Both the position numbers and the translations under genes were made by a program. 64,000 nucleotides of DNA, taken from the NCBI GenBank assembly GCA_016177795.1, contig JACOUM010000012.1:1-64000 (forward strand). Direction: 5' to 3'. The stretch is from Nitrosomonadales bacterium. Its GTDB lineage: Bacteria > Pseudomonadota > Gammaproteobacteria > Burkholderiales > Gallionellaceae. Shown here piece by piece: positions 1,001-34,290 of this stretch. Position 1 is the first letter of the stretch. Each line of letters starts with the position of its first letter. The notes under the pieces were generated by a model. That model was not told the DNA's origin and searched no databases. It saw only the letters and a program-made list of their open reading frames with translations.

Positions 1001-1153
1001 GGATTTAATCAGGGATGCAAAAATAATCGGACGCCGTTCCGGCTGGCGGTGATTATCCGTCATTTTGCGCGAGTTTTCCCGCTCGACAAAAAGATTAAAA
1101 CGGATAGAGGCGGTAAACTACTGCAAATTGTTTAAATGTGTGAGGAAAATTCC

Positions 1154-1768
1154 GTGAAAATTCTTGCAAGCTGCTTCGTCGTCATCGCCGCACTGCTGCC
1201 TGTTTCCACGGCAGAGGCGCGGCAAACCATCAACGGTTGCGAGATCAAAAGAAGAACCAGTTGCCCCGGCGTCAATCTTTCCGGCATGGACCTGACCAGG
1301 TCGAATCTGTCGAATGCCAACCTGTCGGGCGCCGACCTGTCCGGCGCCAACCTGAGCGGCGACAGGATCACCGAAGCCAATCTGACCAAGGCAAATTTAT
1401 CCGGCGCCAACCTCTCGGGAACCATTCTGTCAATCAGCTACATGAACAACGTGAACATGTCGCGCGCCGATCTCAGCAAGGCCGACCTGTCGCAAAGCAC
1501 CCTGCCGGACGCCAATCTCAGGGAAGCCAATCTTGTCGGCGCAAATTTATCGCTGACCAATCTCAAGGGTGCCGACCTGACCGATGCGACCGCAACGGGT
1601 GCAGTATTCATCATGGCCAATCTGGTCAACGCCAACCTGACCCGCGCCGACCTGACCGAGGCCACGCTGGTCGGCGCCGATATGCGCAACGCCATTCTGG
1701 AGGGCACAAAATTTTGCCGGACCACCATGCCGGACAGAAGCATCAATAACAGCAACTGCCCGAAATAA
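1154..1768 (+). CDS. Secreted pentapeptide-repeat protein
   Basis: A 204-residue protein with a Sec signal peptide (basic start, hydrophobic ILASCFVVIAALLP, cleavage after AEA) followed by about 26 tandem pentapeptide repeats of the A(D/N)LSx type from about residue 40 to 190. Such repeats fold as a right-handed quadrilateral beta-helix. The function of secreted versions is mostly unknown; Qnr-like DNA mimicry is unlikely for an exported protein. Four cysteines (two before, two after the helix) could form disulfides, consistent with the periplasm. I chose GTG at 1154 because GAGGA lies seven bases upstream; an ATG at 1136 is also in frame. It appears to be a single-gene unit ending at a strong terminator. 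Confidence 0.8.
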   Translation: MKILASCFVVIAALLPVSTAEARQTINGCEIKRRTSCPGVNLSGMDLTRSNLSNANLSGADLSGANLSGDRITEANLTKANLSGANLSGTILSISYMNNVNMSRADLSKADLSQSTLPDANLREANLVGANLSLTNLKGADLTDATATGAVFIMANLVNANLTRADLTEATLVGADMRNAILEGTKFCRTTMPDRSINNSNCPK

Positions 1769-1870: not shown

Positions 1871-1903
1871 AACCAACCCCGCCGAATGGCGGGGTTGGTT
1901 TTT
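1871..1903. terminator. Bidirectional intrinsic terminator
   Basis: A perfect 13-bp stem (AACCAACCCCGCC / GGCGGGGTTGGTT) closes on a GAAT loop and is followed by T residues on the plus strand. It sits between two convergent genes (pentapeptide-repeat gene and FecR gene) and probably serves both. Confidence 0.85.
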
Positions 1904-1936
1904 GCAAGCAACTCTCAGAGCGGGCAAGAAACCGGC

Positions 1937-3808
1937 TTATATCGGCGGTGTGCCTGACACCTGATACACCTGCACCGATGAGGTGCGTTCCCCTGTCTGC
2001 TCTAGACCTCCAACCGGTGTAGGCCTGGTCGATATGCCGGCCGCCAAGCCCTGCGCATTGGCACCGAACAGCATCGGCGATACTGTAGCAGTAACGGAAC
2101 CAGGGCAAGCCCCCCCTGTACAACCCGCATTGGCAGTAATCTGACTAATAGACGTCGTGGTGCCGACATCGGTCCAGCCAGCATTGCTGGAATTATAAGG
2201 CAGTTGCGAAATAGTAACTGGCACGGGAGCGATAGTGCCAAAGCTCAGGCTGTAACTGCTACCAGAAGGCATGTTCCATGCCGCACCGGTAAGACTAATA
2301 GCTGCCCCGCCCGGATTGAAGGTGATTCCAACCGTGCCACCGTTGGTGATCGTGCCTACATTACCGTTCTGGTCAGTGGGATTGGTGCCGCCCACCCAGG
2401 TATAGGAATACGTACCGGTGGTCGGCAGTGCCGCAAGATTCACCAGGTCGCCGGTCGCCCAATGTTCATAATTGGTCTCGCTGTAGGCCTGCCCTGCAAA
2501 GGTGCCGGTCAGCACCGTGCCACTGGTGGTCATCATATAGCGCCCCCAACTGAGGTTGCCTGCTGCCGCATTCAACCCCACATTCGTGGAAACAGTCTTG
2601 GTCCAAGTGAAACTCGCCGTTCCGTCTAAGATACCGGTGCAATTAGTAAAGCAATTCGAACCGCTGAAATCGTAATAGCCCCAAGTTCCGCTACGGCTAT
2701 AGGCATTAGTAAAGAAAGTTAGTGGCGTTCCCAGATTAACCACAATCTCCGCGAACATCATCTTGTTGGAATCGGGCTGCTGCAGCAGAGCAGCATTCAG
2801 AACGGTGAGTGTGCCTTGATCGACTCCGGCATCACTGTAACCGAATCCCCAAGGGCTTCCGCTGTAAACCACCCCGCCGATTTTATAGGGTTTATTGCTG
2901 ATTCCTGTCCAAGCGCTGACCCAGGCAAACTGATAGGGATAGGACTGGCCGCCGCCGATCAAGCCACCGGACACGTTGGTCTGCACCGCACCTTGCTGTG
3001 CTGGCACGAATTGCGTGTCCGCCGCGATTTGAACTGAAGCGGATGTCGCCCCAGTGGGCTGGGTGGTCACTGCCGTGCTGGCCTGCTGCCTGGTGTCGGC
3101 GGTTTCACTGCCCTCGCCGGCGACGACCGTGCCTGCGGGAGGCTTGCCCTCTTTGCTCTTTGCCTGTCCTTCCAGCTGGTCGCGCAGGAACGATGGCGGT
3201 GCCAGCAACGGTTTTGGCAGTGCATTTGCACTGGGCACATGGAAGAATTCGTTCTTGCCGAATTCTTTCTCGCCGGCCTGGTTGGTCACCGCGATGCGCC
3301 CGTCCGTCACCCCGCCAAACAGGCCATCCTCGGCCTGGCTGCCGTCCTTGTTGAAGCAGTCGCCGGCACACTGCGCCAGCACAAAGTGTGTGCCGCGAAT
3401 CCCGATCGTGGCGGTGGCCGCCTTGACGGCATAGTTGTCCCGGTTGTAACGTCCAATCAGGCCGGTGATAGCGCGCATCCCGCCTTTCACCAGACTGAAA
3501 AACGACTTGCCAATGTTGGTCTTTTCCTCGAACCTGTAGTCGTCAATGCGGAATTCCGAATTGGAACGCAATGCGGTAATGCCCTCGTCGGTAAAACGCA
3601 CCTGCATGTTGCTGGCCTCGCCCACGCGCAGGGTGTCTCCGGTTTGCACTTCGGCGCCACGGGTCAATTTGACCACGGCGCCGTTCCTGAGCGCGCTCGT
3701 ATCGCCCACCGCGACAAGCACTCTGCCGACCGGTTCGGCATGCACAACAGAACCACCAAATGCCAGCAGCAAAGTTGCAGAGATGATAGATAGTCCAATA
3801 TTTTTCAT
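1937..3808 (-). CDS. Secreted FecR-domain protein, putative Slam-type cargo (locus 1)
   Basis: 623 residues. Signal peptide 1-24 (MKNIGLSII...VVHA) has no lipobox cysteine, so the protein is released or cell-surface rather than lipidated at the inner membrane. Residues about 30-150 are a FecR domain with the motif block FFSLVKGGMRAITG then ATIGIRGT, which is shared almost word for word with the second locus at 31379-32842. There is no N-terminal sigma-regulator helix bundle or transmembrane anchor, so this is not a classical FecR anti-sigma factor. A Thr/Gln/Gly-rich linker (about 240-290) precedes a long Gly/Ser/Thr/Tyr-rich beta-type region. The C-terminus carries paired cysteines (CTGGAC) and a LFGANAQGLAAG motif resembling the small barrel of TbpB-like proteins. 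Thirteen bases separate it from the upstream Slam-like gene. Start chosen by the signal peptide; the open frame extends 57 codons upstream without signal-like character. Confidence 0.75.
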   Translation of the reverse strand: MKNIGLSIISATLLLAFGGSVVHAEPVGRVLVAVGDTSALRNGAVVKLTRGAEVQTGDTLRVGEASNMQVRFTDEGITALRSNSEFRIDDYRFEEKTNIGKSFFSLVKGGMRAITGLIGRYNRDNYAVKAATATIGIRGTHFVLAQCAGDCFNKDGSQAEDGLFGGVTDGRIAVTNQAGEKEFGKNEFFHVPSANALPKPLLAPPSFLRDQLEGQAKSKEGKPPAGTVVAGEGSETADTRQQASTAVTTQPTGATSASVQIAADTQFVPAQQGAVQTNVSGGLIGGGQSYPYQFAWVSAWTGISNKPYKIGGVVYSGSPWGFGYSDAGVDQGTLTVLNAALLQQPDSNKMMFAEIVVNLGTPLTFFTNAYSRSGTWGYYDFSGSNCFTNCTGILDGTASFTWTKTVSTNVGLNAAAGNLSWGRYMMTTSGTVLTGTFAGQAYSETNYEHWATGDLVNLAALPTTGTYSYTWVGGTNPTDQNGNVGTITNGGTVGITFNPGGAAISLTGAAWNMPSGSSYSLSFGTIAPVPVTISQLPYNSSNAGWTDVGTTTSISQITANAGCTGGACPGSVTATVSPMLFGANAQGLAAGISTRPTPVGGLEQTGERTSSVQVYQVSGTPPI

Positions 3809-3821
3809 GTCACACCCCATT

Positions 3822-5195
3822 TTAAAGTTCGTAACGTGCCTTGACTGAAACCACTTCGCGTCCGTAGCGGAACAGGCCGATGTTGGAGCCCTGATCCAGT
3901 ATCTGCGCCTCGGCGCGAACGCTGAACTGCTTGGTGTAAAAATAGGACACCGACCCGTCCAGCCCCCAGGAGGTGTCATGCCGCCTCTCGCTGCCCGCCG
4001 TAAAGATATCCCGATACTTGTTTTCCTGGTAGCCGATGCCCGCGCTCACCCCCCAACGCTCGGCGGGGGTCATCGCGAACGAAACGCGCGCACCGTAGAT
4101 GTCGCGCGACAAATCGGCGCGGTTACGCTGGTTGCTTTCCTCGCCATAATTCCCGGAAACGGTGATGACGGGCTGATAAGGCATCGCGAGCGCATGCGCC
4201 CATGCGCCGGAAATGCCGATGAAGTCCGAGTTGCGATCTGTTAACACACTCAACACAGGGCCACCTGCCTTGTCCTTGGTCAGGTAAATATTCATGTCGT
4301 CGTAGTCGAACCGTGCCAGCTGCGCCCCCAGGGTGAGGCGATTGAATTGGTCAAGCTGGTGGTTCCATTCCCCGTTCAGCCCATAGCTCAGCAGGTAACT
4401 CTGATTGTCCACCCAGCTCTGGGAAAGAAAAGCGCCGCCCTTGTACAGATTTCTCTCCTTGAGGTAGGAAACTCCTCCGGTAGCGCCCAGGCTGTGCTGA
4501 TCGAACACATCGTTATTACTGCCCAGATGCCGCCGCGCATCGACCCCGCCTGCGCCATACAGAGAGACACCCGGCGAAACGGGATAGGTACCCTGCACCC
4601 CGGCGCTCGCCGTCAGGAAAGTATCCTGCTCACGGGCGGAGATGGAATTGGACGAAACGGCCGGGAGCGTGCCGAGTCCCGGTATTTGCGGGGTGGCTCC
4701 GCTGCTCAGGCCGGCGTTGATGTTTGTATCCACGCCCAGACTCGCTTCCACGTAAGCTTTCGCGGTTGGCTGGTAGCGTGATTCACGGGTACGGATAGCG
4801 TCCAGATAGCGCTCGATCGCGATCTTCTGGTTGCCTGTGCTGTTCGGCAACAAGGTTTCGAATTCATCGCGGGCACGCTGATCCTCACCGAGGATGAAGT
4901 AGCCGCGCGCCAGTTGGAAGCGCGCATCGCCATTGTCAGGAAATGACAGGATGTATCGCTCCAAAGCCAATACCCCTTCCCCGGGATGCCCTGCGTCAAT
5001 GGCCGCAATGCCGTAGAAAAAATCGAAGGCCGGATCGCCCAGCAGCTCCGGGGATACTCGCCCGAGCTGGTATGCTTCCTGAGCCTTATTTTGCTCCAGC
5101 AAAGAGCGTATCTCGTCCGCCGGTGCCGCCCATACCGCTGAATGGAACAGCAGCAGGTTGACGACAACGGCCGAAATTAAAGAACGACGAATCAT
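3822..5195 (-). CDS. TPR plus beta-barrel outer-membrane protein, Slam-like (locus 1)
   Basis: 457 residues. Sec signal peptide (MIRRSLISAVVVNLLLF...VWA), then TPR-type helices from about 25 to 150 (repeat pattern AxQLGxxxP..AFDFFYGIAAIDAGxPGEG...), then the junction AYVEASLGVDTNINAG and about 300 residues of alternating amphipathic strands ending KARYEL. The TPR domain followed by a C-terminal barrel that opens with a G-x-D-(S/T)-N-(V/I)-N motif is the architecture of surface lipoprotein assembly modulators (Slam, DUF560). Known Slams move TbpB-like lipoproteins or soluble haemophore cargo across the outer membrane. The downstream FecR protein is the obvious candidate cargo. ATG at 5195 has AGGGAG upstream. 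The Slam assignment is from recognition of architecture, not alignment. Confidence 0.7.
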   Translation of the reverse strand: MIRRSLISAVVVNLLLFHSAVWAAPADEIRSLLEQNKAQEAYQLGRVSPELLGDPAFDFFYGIAAIDAGHPGEGVLALERYILSFPDNGDARFQLARGYFILGEDQRARDEFETLLPNSTGNQKIAIERYLDAIRTRESRYQPTAKAYVEASLGVDTNINAGLSSGATPQIPGLGTLPAVSSNSISAREQDTFLTASAGVQGTYPVSPGVSLYGAGGVDARRHLGSNNDVFDQHSLGATGGVSYLKERNLYKGGAFLSQSWVDNQSYLLSYGLNGEWNHQLDQFNRLTLGAQLARFDYDDMNIYLTKDKAGGPVLSVLTDRNSDFIGISGAWAHALAMPYQPVITVSGNYGEESNQRNRADLSRDIYGARVSFAMTPAERWGVSAGIGYQENKYRDIFTAGSERRHDTSWGLDGSVSYFYTKQFSVRAEAQILDQGSNIGLFRYGREVVSVKARYEL

Positions 5196-5233
5196 TATTT
5201 TTCTCCCTGATTGTTTTAACCCTGACTGATGGC

Positions 5234-5263
5234 AGTATCTCCCCATACCCGCAGTTCGGTCAA
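5234..5263 (-). promoter_or_regulatory. Candidate sigma70 promoter for Slam-like/FecR locus 1
   Basis: Reading the minus strand: -35 TTGACC (5258-5263), 18-bp spacer, -10 GATACT (5234-5239), placing a start site roughly 30 bases before the ATG at 5195. Matches to consensus are 5/6 and 4/6. Confidence 0.5.
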
Positions 5264-5287
5264 TAAGCCAGAAGGCCTATTTTCCGG

Positions 5288-5962
5288 CTATATCAACCCT
5301 TTTTCCGCAAACGACAACACTTGGCCTACCGCCACCACGAAGTGATCCAGCACGCGTACATCCACCAGTCCGAGCGCCTGTTTCAGGGCGTTGGTCAGAT
5401 GCTGGTCGGCCTGGCTCGGTTCGGCGACACCGGAGGGATGGTTGTGCGCGAGAATCACGGCGGCGGCGTTGTGCGCCAGGGCGCGCTTGACCACTTCGCG
5501 CGGGTACACGCTGGTCTGGCTGAGCGTGCCGTGAAACAATTCTTCCGAGGCGATTACGCGATGCTGGGTGTCGAGAAACAGCGCCAGAAAAACTTCCTGC
5601 TGCCGCCCGCCGAGCAATAGCCGCAAATAATCGCGCACCGCGCGCGGCGAGTTGAACGCATCGCCATGCTGCAATTCTTCCTGCAAGGCGCGCCGCGACA
5701 TCTCCAGCACGGCTTGCAGTTGCACGTATTTCGCCTGCCCCATGCCGTGCGTTTCGCAAAAATTCGCCTCGCCGGCGGCAAACAGTTGGGTGAGGCTACC
5801 GAATTTGCCAATCAGCTCGCGCGCCAGATCCACCGCACTCTTGCCGGTCACACCGGTGCGCAGAAAGATCGCCAGCAACTCGGCATCGGATAACGATGAA
5901 GCACCGCGCAGGAGGAGCTTCTCTCTGGGACGTTCTCCGGCGGGCCAGTCAGTGATACTCAT
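5288..5962 (-). CDS. radC: RadC family JAB-domain protein
   Basis: 224 residues. An N-terminal helix-hairpin-helix-like region ([16 protein letters not shown]) is followed by an MPN/JAB domain with the metal motif HNHPSG and the downstream Asp of SQADQH. The family is conserved, but its original DNA-repair role has been withdrawn. AGGAG seven bases upstream supports the ATG at 5962. The start codon overlaps the TGA of a short upstream ORF (5959-6087) that begins with a near copy of the RadC N-terminus. It runs away from coaBC, whose promoter must lie in or near that upstream ORF. Confidence 0.93.
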
Positions 5963-6087
5963 GCTTGATTCTCCTGTGGCAGCTTTTGGCTTCGGCATAA
6001 CCTGAAGGTTAGCCTTCGCCGCAACAAGCCGCTTCGCGGCGTGTTGTCTCTGGGGCGCTCGAATTCAGGCCAGTCGGTGATTGCCAT
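5959..6087 (-). CDS. 42-codon leader ORF duplicating the radC start
   Basis: ATG at 6087 with GGGAGG six bases upstream opens a 42-residue frame whose first residues [14 protein letters not shown] closely match the RadC N-terminus [14 protein letters not shown]. Its TGA overlaps the ATG of radC (ATGA), in a different frame. Between the duplicated segments lies a stem CAACAAGCCGC-TTC-GCGGCGTGTTG. The arrangement suggests a partial tandem duplication of the radC 5' end, now either a relic or a translationally coupled leader. No function can be assigned to the peptide. Confidence 0.45.
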
Positions 6088-6137
6088 AACAGCCTCCCAG
6101 CCCGGACGGGCGGTTTCTTGATAAGATGCGCGGCATT

Positions 6138-7331
6138 ATGGAACAACAATCGGCAAAACGCATCCTGCTCGGCATCACCGGCGGCATCGCGGCCTACAAG
6201 GCGGCGGAGTTGCTGCGCCTGCTGATGAAACAGGGTATGGAGGTGCAGGTCGCGATGACCGAGGCGGCTTGCCAATTCATCACGCCGACCACGATGCAGG
6301 GATTATCCGGCAAACCGGTTCTTACCTCGCAATGGAACGACACCGGCAATGGCATGGCGCATATCAACCCGAGCCGCGCTGCCGATGCGATTGTAATCGC
6401 ACCCGCGACCGCCGATTTTATCGCCAGGCTGGCGCATGGTCTGGCGAATGACCTGCTTTCTTCGCTATGCCTGGCACGCAATTGCCCGCTGCTGGTCGCG
6501 CCGGCGATGAACCGCGAGATGTGGCAAAACGCGGCGACGCAGCGCAACATCGCACAACTGCTTGCCGATGGCGTGCAGGTGCTTGGACCGGACTGCGGCG
6601 TGCAAGCCTGCGGCGAGCAAGGCATGGGACGGATGCTGGAGGCGGAGCGATTGGCGCAGGACATTGCGGCATTTTTTCAGCCCAGGCAACTCCCCGGCAA
6701 GAGAATTCTGATTACCGCCGGGCCGACTTACGAGGCGATCGATGCGGTGCGCGGCATCACCAACCGCAGTTCCGGCAAGATGGGCTATGCCGTTGCGCAG
6801 GCCGCGCTGGAACAGGGCGCGGAGGTGGTGCTGGTGTCTGGTCCGGTAGCACTCGCCAAACCGCCGGGGGTGCAAGGCGTGGATGTGGTGAGCGCCGCGC
6901 AGATGTTCGAGGCGGTGCAGCAACATGTTGGCGATTGCGATATTTTCATCGGCGTGGCGGCGGTGGCGGATTACCGCGTCGCGCAGCCGAGCGAACAGAA
7001 AATCAAGAAAAGCGCGGGTTCGCTCACGCTGGAACTTGTGCCCAATCCGGATATTCTGGCGCATGTCGCCAGCCTGCCGCATCCGCCGTTCTGCGTGGGC
7101 TTTGCCGCCGAAAGCGAGAATCTCGCGGAATATGCCGAGCAAAAACGCCGCGCGAAGAAGCTGCCGCTGCTGGTGGGCAATCTCGCGCAACAGGCCATCG
7201 GCAACGACGACAACGAACTGGTCTTGTTTGACGACAGCGGCAGCCACATCCTGCCGCGTGCCGATAAATTCACGCTGGCGCGTCAATTGATGCAGCACAT
7301 TGCACTTCGTTACAAAGGAGCAGGCAAATGA
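6138..7331 (+). CDS. coaBC: Bifunctional phosphopantothenoylcysteine decarboxylase/synthase CoaBC
   Basis: Coenzyme A biosynthesis: joins cysteine to 4'-phosphopantothenate (CoaB, CTP-dependent) and decarboxylates the product (CoaC, FMN). The N-terminal flavoprotein half shows [10 protein letters not shown], the active-site His of [15 protein letters not shown] and the substrate-clamp Cys in [10 protein letters not shown]. The C-terminal half begins [13 protein letters not shown] and contains [15 protein letters not shown] at 6138 matches family N-termini; an in-frame ATG at 6126 is possible, and neither has a strong ribosome-binding site. The last codons overlap dut (ATGA), so the two are translationally coupled. 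The coaBC-dut order is standard in proteobacteria. Confidence 0.95.
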
Positions 7332-29927: not shown

Positions 29928-31277
29928 CTACCCGCCAATCAGTGAAATGAAATCCTCGTATTTGAAGTTTGCGCTGCGCTCGATCTGTTGCACGTGGCGG
30001 AGCTCGATCTCAAACGGATAACCGAGGCTCTCCTGCAGGGCACGGATAAAGCGTTGCTGCTGTTCCGGCGTCAGCGGTTGATCGATTGCAAGGCGTGCCT
30101 CGATCCGCCGCGGGCTGTGCTGCACCAGTTGTATCTGCCGGATCAGCGCAATGCCGGTCCATGTCTCCGCCGGGAAGCTCGGCCAATGCCGCGTGCCATC
30201 GGGCAGCACCAGCATGTTGCGCTGCCGCCCCATGATGCGCTTCAACACCGGCAGGCCGCGCCCGCATGGGCATGGCTCGCCCACTTCCGCATAATCGCCG
30301 TTGGCATAGCGTAGCAGCGGCATGGCGAAATTATGCAGGGTGGTGATGACCACCCTGCCGACTTGGCCCGGCGCGCAGGGCTGCCCTCCGGCATCAAGAA
30401 TTTCCACCAGCAGATTCTCGGCCTGCACATGGTAGTGCTCATGCGCCGGGCATTGCAGCGCGATGGTGGATACCTCTTCGGCACTATAGACATCGGTGAC
30501 CGGCACGCCCCACGCTTTGCTGCACGTATCCCGCAAGTCTGCCGGCAGCGTCTCGCCGAAGGTGCGCACTTCGCGCAAATTTCCGATGCGCGTGCCGGTC
30601 TCGAGGCTGCGCCGCGCCAATGCCAGGATGTTGGAGGGATGACTCAACAGATAGTCGGGGTTTTGTTCCCTGAGCCACGCCAGTTGCACGTCGATGTCGC
30701 TGGCGATATTGAGCATGACGCTTGGGCCGGTGGCGTAAACCGCATCCGTGGCAGGCCCCCAGCCCTGCAGCGTTGCGCTATCGATCTTGGTGCGGATCGC
30801 CGCCAGCCTGGCGGATAAATCGCGCCGATGCCACAGATGATCGCGCAGCGTCAGCGCGCTGCCGAAGAAGTGGGTGACTTCGCTGCCCAGCACCTTGATC
30901 GGTTGCCCGGTGGAGCCGGATGAGCCGAAGCTGAGAAACTTGCCGTGATCCGGCGGGAGCTTGCTGGTCACCAGCGCGTCGCCCGCCGACTGGATTTCGG
31001 CGCGGGTGAGCAGCGGCAGTTGGAAGAAGGCAGCGGCGGCGAATCCGCTGCACGGGTCGAAGCGGGCCGCAGCGAAGCGCTGCCGGTAAAAAGGGACGGT
31101 CTCGCTGGCATGCCGCAGCAGCGGCGCAAGCTGTTGCAACTGCCGCTCGCGCAAAGTTTCCGGCGGCAACCACTGGCTTTGCTGCAACTGGAACTGCATG
31201 GCCAGCATGCTCGCCCCGACCGGCGGCGGCATCGCCGGCCAGCCGATGCCGGGAACTATGCTGTGAGGGAGGAGCAT
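29928..31277 (-). CDS. PaaK/CapK-like acyl-adenylating ligase (second paralogue)
   Basis: 449 residues, clearly paralogous to the ligase at 27288 throughout: shared GIGWPA near the N-terminus, ETVPFYRQ, SSGSTGQPIKV, YLLSHPSN, VTDVYSAEEVSTIALQCPAH and the identical hinge GEPCPCGRGLPVLKRIMGR. The C-terminal subdomains differ more, suggesting different acyl substrates or acceptors. It lacks about 17 N-terminal residues of its paralogue. It faces the cluster convergently across a palindromic element, so it has its own promoter. Confidence 0.8.
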   Translation of the reverse strand: MLLPHSIVPGIGWPAMPPPVGASMLAMQFQLQQSQWLPPETLRERQLQQLAPLLRHASETVPFYRQRFAAARFDPCSGFAAAAFFQLPLLTRAEIQSAGDALVTSKLPPDHGKFLSFGSSGSTGQPIKVLGSEVTHFFGSALTLRDHLWHRRDLSARLAAIRTKIDSATLQGWGPATDAVYATGPSVMLNIASDIDVQLAWLREQNPDYLLSHPSNILALARRSLETGTRIGNLREVRTFGETLPADLRDTCSKAWGVPVTDVYSAEEVSTIALQCPAHEHYHVQAENLLVEILDAGGQPCAPGQVGRVVITTLHNFAMPLLRYANGDYAEVGEPCPCGRGLPVLKRIMGRQRNMLVLPDGTRHWPSFPAETWTGIALIRQIQLVQHSPRRIEARLAIDQPLTPEQQQRFIRALQESLGYPFEIELRHVQQIERSANFKYEDFISLIGG

Positions 31278-31378: not shown

Positions 31379-32842
31379 TTAATACATGTTGGGGTCAATC
31401 CCATCCGGCCCCGCCGCCGATTTCGTGAATGCGGCGACACCGGCGACGTTGCCAGAGGAGTAAGGATCATCGAAGGAATAGGCCACCCCGGCACGGGATG
31501 CGTTGGCGCCGGCGAAGAACCCGGCGACATTGGCATAGCACCCCTCACTGCAATAGCCCGAGCCCGTGGCGGTTCCCGATCCCGAGAAGGTAGAGCCGCT
31601 GTTGATATCCATGCCGGTGGCGGTGATGTCATAGCTGCCGGCCGCCGGGAACGCTATCTGCAGGCCAACATCGACCGTACGCGAACCAAAATAGGCGGTC
31701 AGCGAACCGCCGTTCAGGGTGCCGACCCCGCCCTCGAAACCGTCGCCGGTCGGCAGCGTCCCGCCGAGCAGAGAATAGGTGGCGGTGATATTGCTCATCG
31801 CATCTATGTCGGCCTGGGGAGTGGGGAGTCCCACCACGTAGTGGAAGGTATCACCTGTATCCCCGTTCGTTAGGTGCATAGGATGCGGATAAGGATAATT
31901 TTCGTCAGTAATTCCGCCGTTCCAGCGGCCCCAGCCGATGATGCCATCGGTGGCTGAGAATGAGACACTGGCCGTTCCCAGCGCGCCGCCTTCCGCTCCG
32001 TCATATTGGATCAACTGGCTGGTGCTACTGAAGGTGGCCGTCACGTCAGCTGTGTAGCTCCAGAGATCAATGCATCCATCTTCACAGGAATCATAGCGAT
32101 ATGCATTGGCCAGGACATAGCCGGGGCCGGAAATCAGCGCCACCGGAAGAATGGCCAGGCCGCCCGTAGCATCACGCTGTTCCGCCTCGCTGAAATACTC
32201 ATCCAGGGGCTTGAGGAAACCCGCCGGTGGAGTGCTCGGCTTCTGAAAGGTGAATTCAGGCGCAGTATTGAAGTCGGCGACATAAGCCGCTTCGCCCGAG
32301 GTGACCACCAGCGTGCCGGCATTGTTGGTCAATGAGATCGCGCCCTCGCCGACGTTCACCAGCAGGCCCTCGCCCTCCTGCACGGCATTGTAGCCGGTGC
32401 CGCGGATGCCGATGGTGGCCGCCTGCGTGGCGACCCGATAGGTGTCGCGGTTGGTGCGGCCGATCGCGCCGGTGATCGCCCTAAGGCCGCCCTTCAACAG
32501 GCTGAAGAATCCCTTTTCCTTGCCGTCGGTCTTGTTCTCATACTGGTATTCATCCACCCGGAACTGGCTGCCGGGCTGAAGTGAGACATAGCCGCCATCG
32601 CTGAAACGGATTTGCGCCCGCGCGCCCGCAGCCGTATTGATCGCATCGCCGGCATTGATGACAGCGCCCTTGGCAAGCGGGCGCTGGATACCGTCGGGCG
32701 CTACCGCCACGACCTCGCCGATCACGAAATCCGCACGGCCGGCGACGATACAGTACCCGGTCACCGGATAGGCGGCCGAAACCATCGCCAGCAGAATCGC
32801 CTGATGGCTCAATTTCAATTTAAAGTGCTGTTGAGGAAACAT
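31379..32842 (-). CDS. Secreted FecR-domain protein, putative Slam-type cargo (locus 2)
   Basis: 487 residues. Signal peptide about 1-30 (hydrophobic AILLAMVSAAYPVTGYC), then a FecR domain with GFFSLLKGGLRAITGAIGR and ATIGIRGTGYNAV, closely matching locus 1. A mid region (about 180-390) is rich in Gly, Ser, Thr and aromatics. The last 110 residues contain TAYFGSRTVDVGLQIAF, a cysteine pair (CSEGC) and VAGFFAGANASRAGVAYSF, very like the C-terminal handle barrel of TbpB-like Slam substrates (compare the family pattern FYGPxAxExGG). It has no lipobox in the usual position and no transmembrane anchor. It lies 18 bases downstream of the Slam-like gene; AAGGAG supports the ATG. Confidence 0.78.
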   Translation of the reverse strand: MFPQQHFKLKLSHQAILLAMVSAAYPVTGYCIVAGRADFVIGEVVAVAPDGIQRPLAKGAVINAGDAINTAAGARAQIRFSDGGYVSLQPGSQFRVDEYQYENKTDGKEKGFFSLLKGGLRAITGAIGRTNRDTYRVATQAATIGIRGTGYNAVQEGEGLLVNVGEGAISLTNNAGTLVVTSGEAAYVADFNTAPEFTFQKPSTPPAGFLKPLDEYFSEAEQRDATGGLAILPVALISGPGYVLANAYRYDSCEDGCIDLWSYTADVTATFSSTSQLIQYDGAEGGALGTASVSFSATDGIIGWGRWNGGITDENYPYPHPMHLTNGDTGDTFHYVVGLPTPQADIDAMSNITATYSLLGGTLPTGDGFEGGVGTLNGGSLTAYFGSRTVDVGLQIAFPAAGSYDITATGMDINSGSTFSGSGTATGSGYCSEGCYANVAGFFAGANASRAGVAYSFDDPYSSGNVAGVAAFTKSAAGPDGIDPNMY

Positions 32843-32860: not shown

Positions 32861-34186
32861 TTAGTTGAAATCCCGGCGCAGGCTTATGCTGAGCACCGTC
32901 CGGTCATAATCGTTGATAACGATATTGGAATCGTTGCGGGTATAGCTGAATTGCGGGGTGATCGTCCAACCCGGGACAGGAATATAGCTGGCGCCCACTC
33001 TCAGGTCGGTCTGCGTATCCCCGCGGCTCACCAGGAACAAAGGCTCCTGCCCGCCATAATTGCGTGACTCCAGGCTCGCCGAGCCGAACAGCTTCATTTT
33101 TGGATTGATACTCATTTCGCCGCCGGCACGCGCGCCAATAAGTTGATGCCCCAGATAGGCTACATTGGCCTGCTTTTCCGCTTCTTCGCCCGCATAGCCG
33201 CCGACATAAACGACCGGTGCATAGGCGCCACCCAGTGCGCGGGCATAGGCCGCGCCCAGCACAGTGCGGTCGGCATCGCGCACATTCTGGCCGGGATAAC
33301 GCAACTCGCTGTATTGCAGGTAAACACTGACCTGGCTGCTATTGTCCAGACTGCGCATCCATTGTGCCGTCAGGCCGGTTGCATCGCGATAGCGGTTATT
33401 GTCAACTTCGAAGTTGCTCAACTGCAGTGCCGCCGAATAACTGTCGTCACCCTTGGTCAAATTGACGCCGAGGTTGCCGTCCAGCCCTTTGGTATCGAAA
33501 ATGTCATGCGATGAATTGACGCGCTGGTTGAAATTCACGCCGCCGAACACCGCCCACTCGGGAGAAAATGGATGCCGCACATTGAAACCGCCGGCGGCAC
33601 CGGCGTAATTGTCATGCAGCTTCACGCCGTTGGCACTCAGCGTGGCAATCGCTCCGCCAAAAGCCGGGATCGCCACCTGGCTGCTGCCGGTCGCGCTGTT
33701 CACGTTGCTGTCCGCGCCGACTGCCGCTTCAAGATAACCTCTCATTGTGGTGCGTTCACCGGCAGTGGCCTTCTCAATGGCATCGAGAAACTTCTGGATG
33801 GTGACGCTCACCTCTTTGGGAGGATCCTGCTGTTTGACCGTTTCAAATTCCTGCTTTGAGGTTGCCGTTTCGCCCGTTGCCAGATAGGCCCGGGCGATTT
33901 CTGCGCGCGCCTGCAGGTGGTCTGGCTTGACGGCCAGCACCCGCTCCAGCGCAAATATCGCCTCATTGGGCTTGCCGCTGTCCAGTGCGGCGATGCCGAG
34001 CCGGTAATCGTAATCCGGGTCACCCGCACGCTCGGATTGATACGGTAGCAGCAACGTATAAGCTTCCTGCGCCTTGCCGCCCTTGAGCAGCTTGTCCGCC
34101 TGCCTCACCAGATCATCTTCAACCGCCAACGCAGTACCGGACAACAACAGGGTCAATATGAGAAACCATTTTTCCACGTTGATCAT
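32861..34186 (-). CDS. TPR plus beta-barrel outer-membrane protein, Slam-like (locus 2)
   Basis: 441 residues. Signal peptide (NVEKWFLILTLLLSGTALA), TPR-type repeats at about 25-150 (ADKLLKGGKAQEAYTLL; LGIAALDSGKPNEAIFALE), then GYLEAAVGADSNVNSATG opening a C-terminal barrel of alternating strands ending LSISLRRDFN (aromatic near the C-terminus, as in outer-membrane barrels). Same architecture, length and position as the locus 1 protein, and the repeat-to-barrel junction motif is shared. ATG at 34186 has AAAGGGAG at good spacing; an ATG two codons upstream is too close to it. Predicted exporter of the downstream FecR-domain protein. Confidence 0.7.
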   Translation of the reverse strand: MINVEKWFLILTLLLSGTALAVEDDLVRQADKLLKGGKAQEAYTLLLPYQSERAGDPDYDYRLGIAALDSGKPNEAIFALERVLAVKPDHLQARAEIARAYLATGETATSKQEFETVKQQDPPKEVSVTIQKFLDAIEKATAGERTTMRGYLEAAVGADSNVNSATGSSQVAIPAFGGAIATLSANGVKLHDNYAGAAGGFNVRHPFSPEWAVFGGVNFNQRVNSSHDIFDTKGLDGNLGVNLTKGDDSYSAALQLSNFEVDNNRYRDATGLTAQWMRSLDNSSQVSVYLQYSELRYPGQNVRDADRTVLGAAYARALGGAYAPVVYVGGYAGEEAEKQANVAYLGHQLIGARAGGEMSINPKMKLFGSASLESRNYGGQEPLFLVSRGDTQTDLRVGASYIPVPGWTITPQFSYTRNDSNIVINDYDRTVLSISLRRDFN

Positions 34187-34261
34187 TTGCATTCTCCCTT
34201 TGATGTCCATCTGAAAAATCTTGTCTAAACGATAATGCATAATCTGTTTTTGGTTCAGGGC

Positions 34262-34290
34262 ATTATTCGCCGCAAATAGCATTCCGTCAA
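34262..34290 (-). promoter_or_regulatory. Candidate sigma70 promoter for Slam-like/FecR locus 2
   Basis: Minus strand: -35 TTGACG (34285-34290), 17-bp spacer, -10 AATAAT (34262-34267). The transcript would have a leader of about 70 bases. A GATAATGCATAATC motif (34231-34244) between the start site and the gene has a loose resemblance to a Fur site; this is weak. Confidence 0.55.

Follow-up and report, generated by a model that had tools for sequence, protein, structure and literature searches.

We analysed a 64,000-nucleotide stretch of a Nitrosomonadales genome (Gallionellaceae; GenBank assembly GCA_016177795.1, contig JACOUM010000012.1, positions 1–64,000), here called the window, which carries a pair of minus-strand genes at positions 1937–5195 (locus 1). 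The first gene of the pair encodes P0001, an outer-membrane protein of the SlipAM/Slam type known from type 11 secretion systems (T11SS), and the second encodes P0002, a secreted protein with an N-terminal FecR domain and a C-terminal lobe that resembles TbpB. The locus is confirmed as a real, conserved two-gene unit of SlipAM exporter and FecR cargo, and computation supports its family membership, the pairing of its genes and the fold of the cargo. Its features are as follows.

3822..5195, minus strand: P0001, SlipAM/Slam-type T11SS outer-membrane exporter, 457 residues (PF04575, 29.8 bits against a cut-off of 22)
4833..5012, minus strand: segment of P0001 resembling tetratricopeptide repeats (TPR), residues 62-121 (TPR_16, 24.2 bits, under the cut-off of 32.7)
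4716..4736, minus strand: GVDTNIN junction between the TPR part and the barrel, P0001 residues 154-160 (G154, D156 and N158 invariant in 19 aligned barrels)
1937..3808, minus strand: P0002, FecR-domain T11SS cargo, 623 residues (PF04773, lobe profile, structural model and Foldseek)
3737..3808, minus strand: signal peptide of P0002, residues 1-24, without lipobox (by eye; ends ...VVHA-E)
3206..3733, minus strand: FecR/retention-like beta domain of P0002, residues 26-201 (PF04773, 35.4 bits; fold matches PupR 6ovk, BDI_1681 4m0n and, at E 0.06, 5ix9)
2939..3196, minus strand: probable linker of P0002, rich in T, Q, A and P, residues 205-290 (predicted local distance difference test, pLDDT, below 50 at 222-292)
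1958..2608, minus strand: C-terminal TbpB-like lobe of P0002, residues 401-617 (lobe profile, E 2.2e-11 when built without the window proteins; Foldseek match to TbpB)
2105..2122, minus strand: Cys pair C563/C568 of P0002, ahead of the motif strand (C..GC-like pair in many relatives)
2036..2071, minus strand: LFGANAQGLAAG motif of P0002, residues 580-591 (G582 invariant in 36 cargo proteins)

The open reading frame (ORF) of P0001 reads as a signal-like N terminus, a TPR-like part, the GVDTNIN junction and a C-terminal beta region; its 5′ end at 5195 is consistent, and an alternative in-frame ATG lies at 5246. Because the P0002 start codon is the ATG at 3808, 13 bases separate it from the stop codon of the barrel gene. 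The FecR match of P0002 lies above the PF04773 cut-off of 24 bits, and a Pfam scan of the protein returned no further family up to E 1. In the structural model, a second stretch with pLDDT below 50 spans residues 300-403. The counterpart of the LFGANAQGLAAG motif among relatives reads G-F-F-A-G-x-N-A-x-R-A-G-x-x-Y. A sequence-only reading of this DNA had described a TPR and beta-barrel protein with a G-x-D-T-N-I-N junction, followed 13 bases on by a large secreted FecR protein that has neither anti-sigma features nor a lipobox and ends in the motif and Cys-pair segment. All of these elements are borne out here.

A second pair lies in the same window (locus 2).

32861..34282, minus strand: P0003, second SlipAM exporter (PF04575, 35.2 bits; TPR_19, 44.7 bits; both above cut-off)
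31379..32842, minus strand: P0004, second FecR cargo, 487 residues, 18 bases past the exporter (PF04773, 55.3 bits; structural model; Foldseek)

The two exporters share 30% identity, and the two cargo proteins share 35% identity in the FecR part together with a weak C-terminal match. An AMP-binding-like gene lies downstream of locus 2 (29928-31277). In the genome of origin (1.65 Mb, 74% complete), a profile search of the contigs found two SlipAM matches, which are the two window barrels. A third FecR protein of this genome (contig C7, 125747-126514, 276-residue frame) lies away from the SlipAM matches. No lipobox is present in P0002, in P0004 or in the other 34 aligned cargo proteins, so the lipobox Cys of the lipidated T11SS subtype is missing from the window cargo. 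A lipobox pattern occurs in 4 of the 76 FecR ORFs of 80 related loci, three times within the signal region.

SlipAM is the sole barrel family above its Pfam cut-off for P0001 and P0003, and both exporters carry the TPR part N-terminal to the barrel (TPR_19 exceeds its cut-off of 25 bits in P0003; TPR_16 stays below its own in P0001). Across the 19 aligned barrels, TPR_19 matches 18 and SlipAM 17 at E ≤ 0.01. The barrel is known here from sequence, and one may ask whether it is instead a porin or a polysaccharide-export TPR-barrel with the FecR protein as a periplasmic neighbour. The SlipAM score of P0001 is modest, OMP_b-brl and BBP2_2 fall slightly under their cut-offs for the same protein, and P0003 matches EpsL with 30.8 bits where the cut-off is 275. 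A PDB profile search with the barrel returned TPR proteins and OmpX, and no Slam, among the 60 of 101 matches listed; PDB searches with the individual sequences of P0001 and P0002 gave nothing useful. We consider this alternative very improbable, since no other barrel family exceeds its cut-off, the lobe of the partner is folded like T11SS cargo and the pairing described below recurs at most related barrels. Judged by family scores, the earlier suggestion of a Slam-like barrel is upheld, and an unrelated porin identity is unlikely.

The pairing was followed in 80 loci from named genomes, the best 80 of 241 confirmed candidates by similarity to a P0003-led barrel alignment; all counts on pairing and lobes cover these 80. 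They are close kin of the window barrels, because the query alignment consisted of barrels already known to have FecR partners, and their source genomes are largely environmental. For 75 of the 83 barrel ORFs longer than 300 residues, the next ORF downstream on the same strand matches the FecR profile, and chance neighbourhood is rejected on this count. These partners divide into 64 intact ORFs and 11 cut by contig ends; the lobe is found in 57 of the former and 4 of the latter. Counted by barrel, 75 have a FecR partner and 63 a lobe-bearing one. The eight barrels without FecR lie at contig ends (L130, L154, L171), precede an opposite-strand gene (L145, L173), have a remnant in the partner position (the first barrel of L147) or have partners with a lobe and no FecR (L162, L170); L068 is of this last type. 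Among 61 genomes (the genome of origin and relatives), the barrel protein has matches in 33 and the FecR protein in 46, the latter mainly to the FecR part. As expected of T11SS cargo, the P0002 gene lies beside a SlipAM gene, 13 bases downstream, and the related loci show the same layout.

Several loci depart from the common layout. Near radC in L073, L074, L078, L085 and L092, a lipoprotein-like gene is followed by a SlipAM gene and then by a FecR gene of 225-280 residues without a lobe; these short proteins may be broken genes or separate parts. L063 (7076-8893) encodes a 605-residue SlipAM-type barrel, then a 1849-residue FecR protein, then a further gene; we take the N-terminal part of this barrel to be AMIN-like and the further gene to be parvulin-like.

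Beyond these kin, we searched a phylum sample of 200 genomes, with FecR positions taken mainly from contigs with a SlipAM match. It holds 44 SlipAM matches; 13 of these, including the two of the window, have FecR downstream at no more than 1500 bases, and 4 more have it upstream. At the 17 matches of at least 60 bits, FecR is downstream of none and upstream of three. Outside the kin of the window barrels, the downstream type observed is FecR-only and the upstream type carries both FecR and lobe. The latter is seen in a distant genus (L190), where a 570-residue protein adjoining SlipAM scores 51.7 bits for FecR (cut-off 24) and 30.3 bits for TbpB_B_D (cut-off 26). Judged from their sequences, FecR-only partners of SlipAM also exist. 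In L191-L196 and L096 (3496-7954), SlipAM stands beside short lobe-less FecR proteins, several of them Pro-rich at the end. Some higher-scoring SlipAM genes also have a same-strand FecR gene at 6.5-9.3 kb upstream (G154 contig C85, G181 contig C3, G126 contig C2), an arrangement that by analogy is perhaps of the sigma factor-FecR-receptor-Slam type of Lysobacter.

The C-terminal lobe was described with a 166-position profile of its C-terminal part, built from 34 aligned cargo proteins of the 80 loci. The alignment excludes L135, cargo with several lobes, truncated or cut-off cargo and part of the mid-sized ones, such as L133, L155 and L161. A motif pattern test passed 55 of 64 intact cargo ends and, compared by eye, missed L148, L149 and L169 and wrongly accepted L174. 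The profile matches 65 of the 5610 ORFs of the 80 loci. Direct FecR partners account for 61 of these, and the remainder are the FecR-less partners of L162 and L170, a tandem second cargo in L113 and a 77-residue fragment in L107. All 34 training rows lie within its 62 matched FecR ORFs. A version built without the window proteins recovers P0002 at E 2.2e-11 and P0004 at E 4.4e-46, and matches none of the remaining ORFs among the 217 of at least 90 residues in the window. Lobes may also be repeated: a 2949-residue FecR cargo (L083, 1638-10487) has six clear lobe matches, so the T11SS would need to move a very large protein.

AlphaFold2 models of P0002 (aligned with 36 cargo) and P0004 (with 28) were compared with the PDB by Foldseek. 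The P0004 model (pLDDT 79) places eight strands in residues 353-474 (pLDDT blocks of 74 to 96), and its 32 of 1105 matches at E ≤ 0.001 are all TbpB, LbpB, hemophilin/HphA, NHBA or fHbp, or, for the FecR half, PupR/BDI_1681. For P0002, the 17 of 714 matches that reach E ≤ 0.001 consist of TbpB (E 4.8e-5), fHbp and FecR-type anti-sigma domains; LbpB and NHBA come next, at E 0.0055 and 0.0094. Template modelling (TM) scores by query are at most 0.28, probably because each match is confined to part of the query; the cleaner by-target figures for single lobes are 0.63 for NHBA, 0.47 for the TbpB C-lobe and 0.44 for HphA. By fold, P0004 and, on a weaker model, P0002 end in the TbpB-type eight-stranded barrel of T11SS cargo. 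The sequence-only reading had likened the C terminus of P0002 to Slam-substrate barrels, and the fold matches of both cargo lobes to solved structures of such substrates bear the likeness out.

We infer export, topology, ligand and the role of FecR from these observations. The locus probably represents a branch of the T11SS whose cargo carries, in place of the lipid or handle of known cargo, an N-terminal domain like FecR and the LapA retention module. Sec signal peptides would bring both proteins into the periplasm. The cargo lobe, a handle and eight-stranded TbpB-type barrel, would be recognised by the SlipAM barrel and its TPR part and passed through the outer membrane; lobe export is predicted and likely. 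The exported lobe, the fast-evolving part, would then bind a putative ligand outside. The cargo lacks a lipid anchor. Its N-terminal FecR domain, joined through the flexible linker and related to the LapA retention module, would on balance remain on the periplasmic side, tethering the protein and perhaps relaying a signal there.

Several observations weigh against this reading. At the level of sequence families, P0002 and P0004 match neither TbpB_B_D nor slam_lipo; slam_lipo matches 6 of the 36 cargo proteins, at best with 37.2 bits against a cut-off of 80. TbpB_B_D exceeds its cut-off in one of a 26-protein cargo set, the four-lobed (by reading) 1384-residue protein of L084, in which one lobe scores 41.1 bits and FecR 33.9 bits. 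A comparison of the lobe profile with this TbpB_B_D-scoring lobe failed (probability 0.4%); the link between lobe and TbpB rests on the fold matches together with L084 and L190. The FecR part and much of residues 401-617 are ordered in the P0002 model, whose overall pLDDT is a moderate 65. The LapA retention model NF033682 matches 33 of the 36 cargo proteins, the scores seen lying under its curated cut-off (P0004 40.3 bits against 50; P0002 without a match). A search of the 74%-complete genome of origin gave no match to LapG (PF06035), and LapG-like [TAP]AAG words occur in 13 of the 36 cargo proteins at no consistent position. Cargo that lacks a lipobox could also be released from the cell.

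The lobe-less partners count on the same side. Seven of the 64 intact FecR partners have no lobe (L116, L134, L147, L150, the first of L157, L172 and L174), nor do the downstream FecR partners fetched from the phylum sample: all six (L191-L196, of eleven such cases outside the window) have 262-407 residues and no lobe match. FecR, not the lobe, may therefore be what the barrel requires. On such a view the working partner of the barrel would be FecR, which would bind the periplasmic TPR part and act as substrate, gate or regulator; the lobe would be a passenger acquired in some lineages. The identity of FecR follows that of the TPR part more closely than the lobe does (Spearman 0.75 and 0.59; the rows are related). 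We consider this alternative improbable: L162, L170 and L068 have lobe partners without FecR, some of the short FecR ORFs may be broken genes, and passages of PMC12282271 present the C-terminal barrel as the element that unifies known T11SS cargo. Taken together, the lobe-less FecR partners and the FecR-less lobe partners indicate that neither domain is universal.

Returning to the tethered T11SS cargo that we favour, we next consider on which side of the membrane its FecR domain resides. Over 36 exporter-cargo pairs, mean pairwise identity is 0.50 for the TPR part, 0.47 for FecR, 0.37 for the barrel and 0.32 for the lobe, and FecR identity exceeds lobe identity in 623 of 630 comparisons, the rows in both cases being related. 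FecR, nearly as constrained as the exporter, is thus more easily placed on the exporter's side than outside. The FecR part of the P0002 model also matches the cell surface anchoring domain 5ix9 over 62 columns (TM 0.77 by target, E 0.06), and in LapA-type systems the retention module is located in the periplasm, according to a section of PMC13090378. The sequence-only reading had raised the idea that the FecR domain is exported and senses or binds a ligand at the surface. In this alternative the whole cargo would pass the outer membrane, FecR would be a ligand-binding effector domain, and the protein would be released like hemophilin or held by other contacts. Known soluble T11SS cargo, built of an effector at the N terminus and a barrel at the C terminus, are exported, as passages of PMC8406197 and PMC12282271 describe, and the NCBIfam models of the Leptospira proteins LipL45 and Lsa33, the latter a surface adhesin by name, match 32 and 31 of the 36 cargo proteins, the scores seen lying far under cut-off. 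However, conservation close to that of the TPR part would be unusual for a ligand-binding surface part, the folds that FecR matches are anti-sigma regulator domains such as the PupR cell-surface signalling domain, and CHASE2 cyclase genes adjoin some of the pairs. Full export is rather unlikely. Because of its conservation, its likeness to retention modules and the CHASE2 neighbours, FecR seems on balance to stay in the periplasm, as anchor or relay. Of the earlier reading, the Slam-type exporter with a FecR cargo stands on SlipAM membership, fold and conserved pairing, and export of the FecR domain itself is the less well supported part.

The CHASE2 neighbours raise a further alternative, in which the exported lobe would sense a ligand and the periplasmic FecR domain would act on a partner in the inner membrane; in some genomes this partner would be a CHASE2 adenylate/guanylate cyclase. 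The order FecR cargo, SlipAM and CHASE2 protein recurs in four species of one distant genus (L190 at 1907-7212, L197, L198 and L199), and in L190 Pfam confirms the FecR and TbpB_B_D domains of the cargo and the CHASE2 and cyclase domains of its neighbour. CHASE2-like ORFs occur in 9 of the 80 loci against 0.81 expected from the genomes of 44 relatives, the two figures coming from different detection methods. A Burkholderia biofilm operon described in part of PMC5192318 joins a LysM-FecR protein to a CHASE2 histidine kinase, and the FecR halves match PupR. A CHASE2 protein also stands next to the lobe-less FecR partners of L191 and L096. On the other side, several of the nine loci are related and two (L125 and L139) are Pfam-checked, FecR and CHASE2 genes adjoin, by eye, also without SlipAM, and the two CHASE2 matches of the genome of origin lie on a contig other than that of the window. 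Two further genomes of the L190 genus, G108 and G242, have SlipAM matches; the one fetched, G108 (L184), has no three-gene operon. We regard surface-to-cytoplasm signalling of this kind as doubtful.

Around locus 1, the neighbours scanned were radC and a pentapeptide-repeat gene. The latter encodes a protein with a signal-like N terminus (1136-1768, plus strand) and is convergent with the cargo gene. One further feature lies 3′ of the cargo stop codon.

1871..1900, minus strand: perfect 13-bp inverted repeat with a 4-nt loop, terminator-like with a weak T tail (by eye)

The scan did not list this inverted repeat. No sigma factor was found among the scanned neighbours, and the Pfam scan of P0002, which returned FecR alone, shows no anti-sigma part. 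With its fused lobe in addition, an anti-sigma FecR protein is rejected as the identity of P0002. A LapA/T1SS (type 1 secretion system) adhesin proper is likewise rejected, with scores under cut-off, no LapG found in the genome of origin and a SlipAM exporter.

About ten T11SS cargo architectures are described in passages of PMC12282271, and the word FecR does not occur in the main texts of PMC12282271 and PMC8406197. In the literature searched, we found nothing on FecR together with DUF560 or T11SS and no report of FecR fused to a T11SS cargo; FecR combined with surface lipoprotein assembly appeared in PMC11233812 only. Within this literature, the new part is FecR in a T11SS cargo, as had been proposed from the sequence, and the kind of secretion itself is known; part of PMC11233812 describes a Slam cluster that includes FecR as a regulator gene of its own. 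The seven experimentally verified T11SS exporters all fall in the animal-associated cluster 1, according to passages of PMC12282271, and a section of PMC8406197 gives no characterised protein for the other nine clusters, mostly of water and soil organisms. The pairs described here supply a concrete class of cargo that recurs with divergent barrels, and raise testable questions on the cargo of such barrels and on how non-lipidated cargo are retained on the cell. More speculatively, and with low confidence, a widespread, largely environmental T11SS branch might consist of exporter-tethered surface receptors, with lobes outside and FecR as periplasmic plug and transmitter to CHASE2 cyclases or other inner-membrane partners. 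If so, the T11SS would be a signalling system as well, a parallel to surface signalling through TonB receptors and FecR.

Compared with known systems, the window pairs resemble the T11SS of Slam with TbpB or LbpB lipoproteins in having a SlipAM/DUF560 exporter beside a cargo that ends in handle and barrel, and among T11SS structures both window cargo match TbpB best by fold. They differ in lacking a lipobox, in the N-terminal FecR domain and in exporters that score 24.7 and 35.3 bits to SlipAM in the contig search, whereas the best of the phylum sample reach 335. The soluble hemophore systems (HrpB/HrpC, hemophilin and HphA) share the non-lipidated cargo with one C-terminal barrel, and the hemophilin and HphA structures match P0004; unlike these, the window cargo carry FecR at the N terminus. 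The multi-lobe Sphingomonas and Psychrobacter proteins described in part of PMC12282271 likewise have tandem handle-barrel lobes, as do FecR cargo of up to 2949 residues, but begin with P-T or PTD repeats. The Lysobacter cluster, as given in part of PMC11233812, comprises a sigma factor, a FecR regulator, a TonB receptor, a Slam-dependent TbpB-like lipoprotein and Slam, and so also brings FecR, Slam and cargo together; in that cluster FecR has a regulator gene of its own next to the sigma factor, whereas here it is fused to the cargo. With the LapA-type giant adhesins, the window cargo share an N-terminal beta domain on a surface protein, seen in the NF033682 and 5ix9 matches, but the NF033682 scores lie under cut-off, P0002 has no match, LapG was not found and a SlipAM barrel takes the place of a type 1 system as exporter. 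Finally, the PF04773 scores of both cargo and the fold match to PupR are shared with the FecR/PupR anti-sigma proteins of cell-surface signalling, whereas no anti-sigma part or second Pfam domain was found in P0002, which is set apart by its N-terminal signal peptide and its fused TbpB-like lobe.

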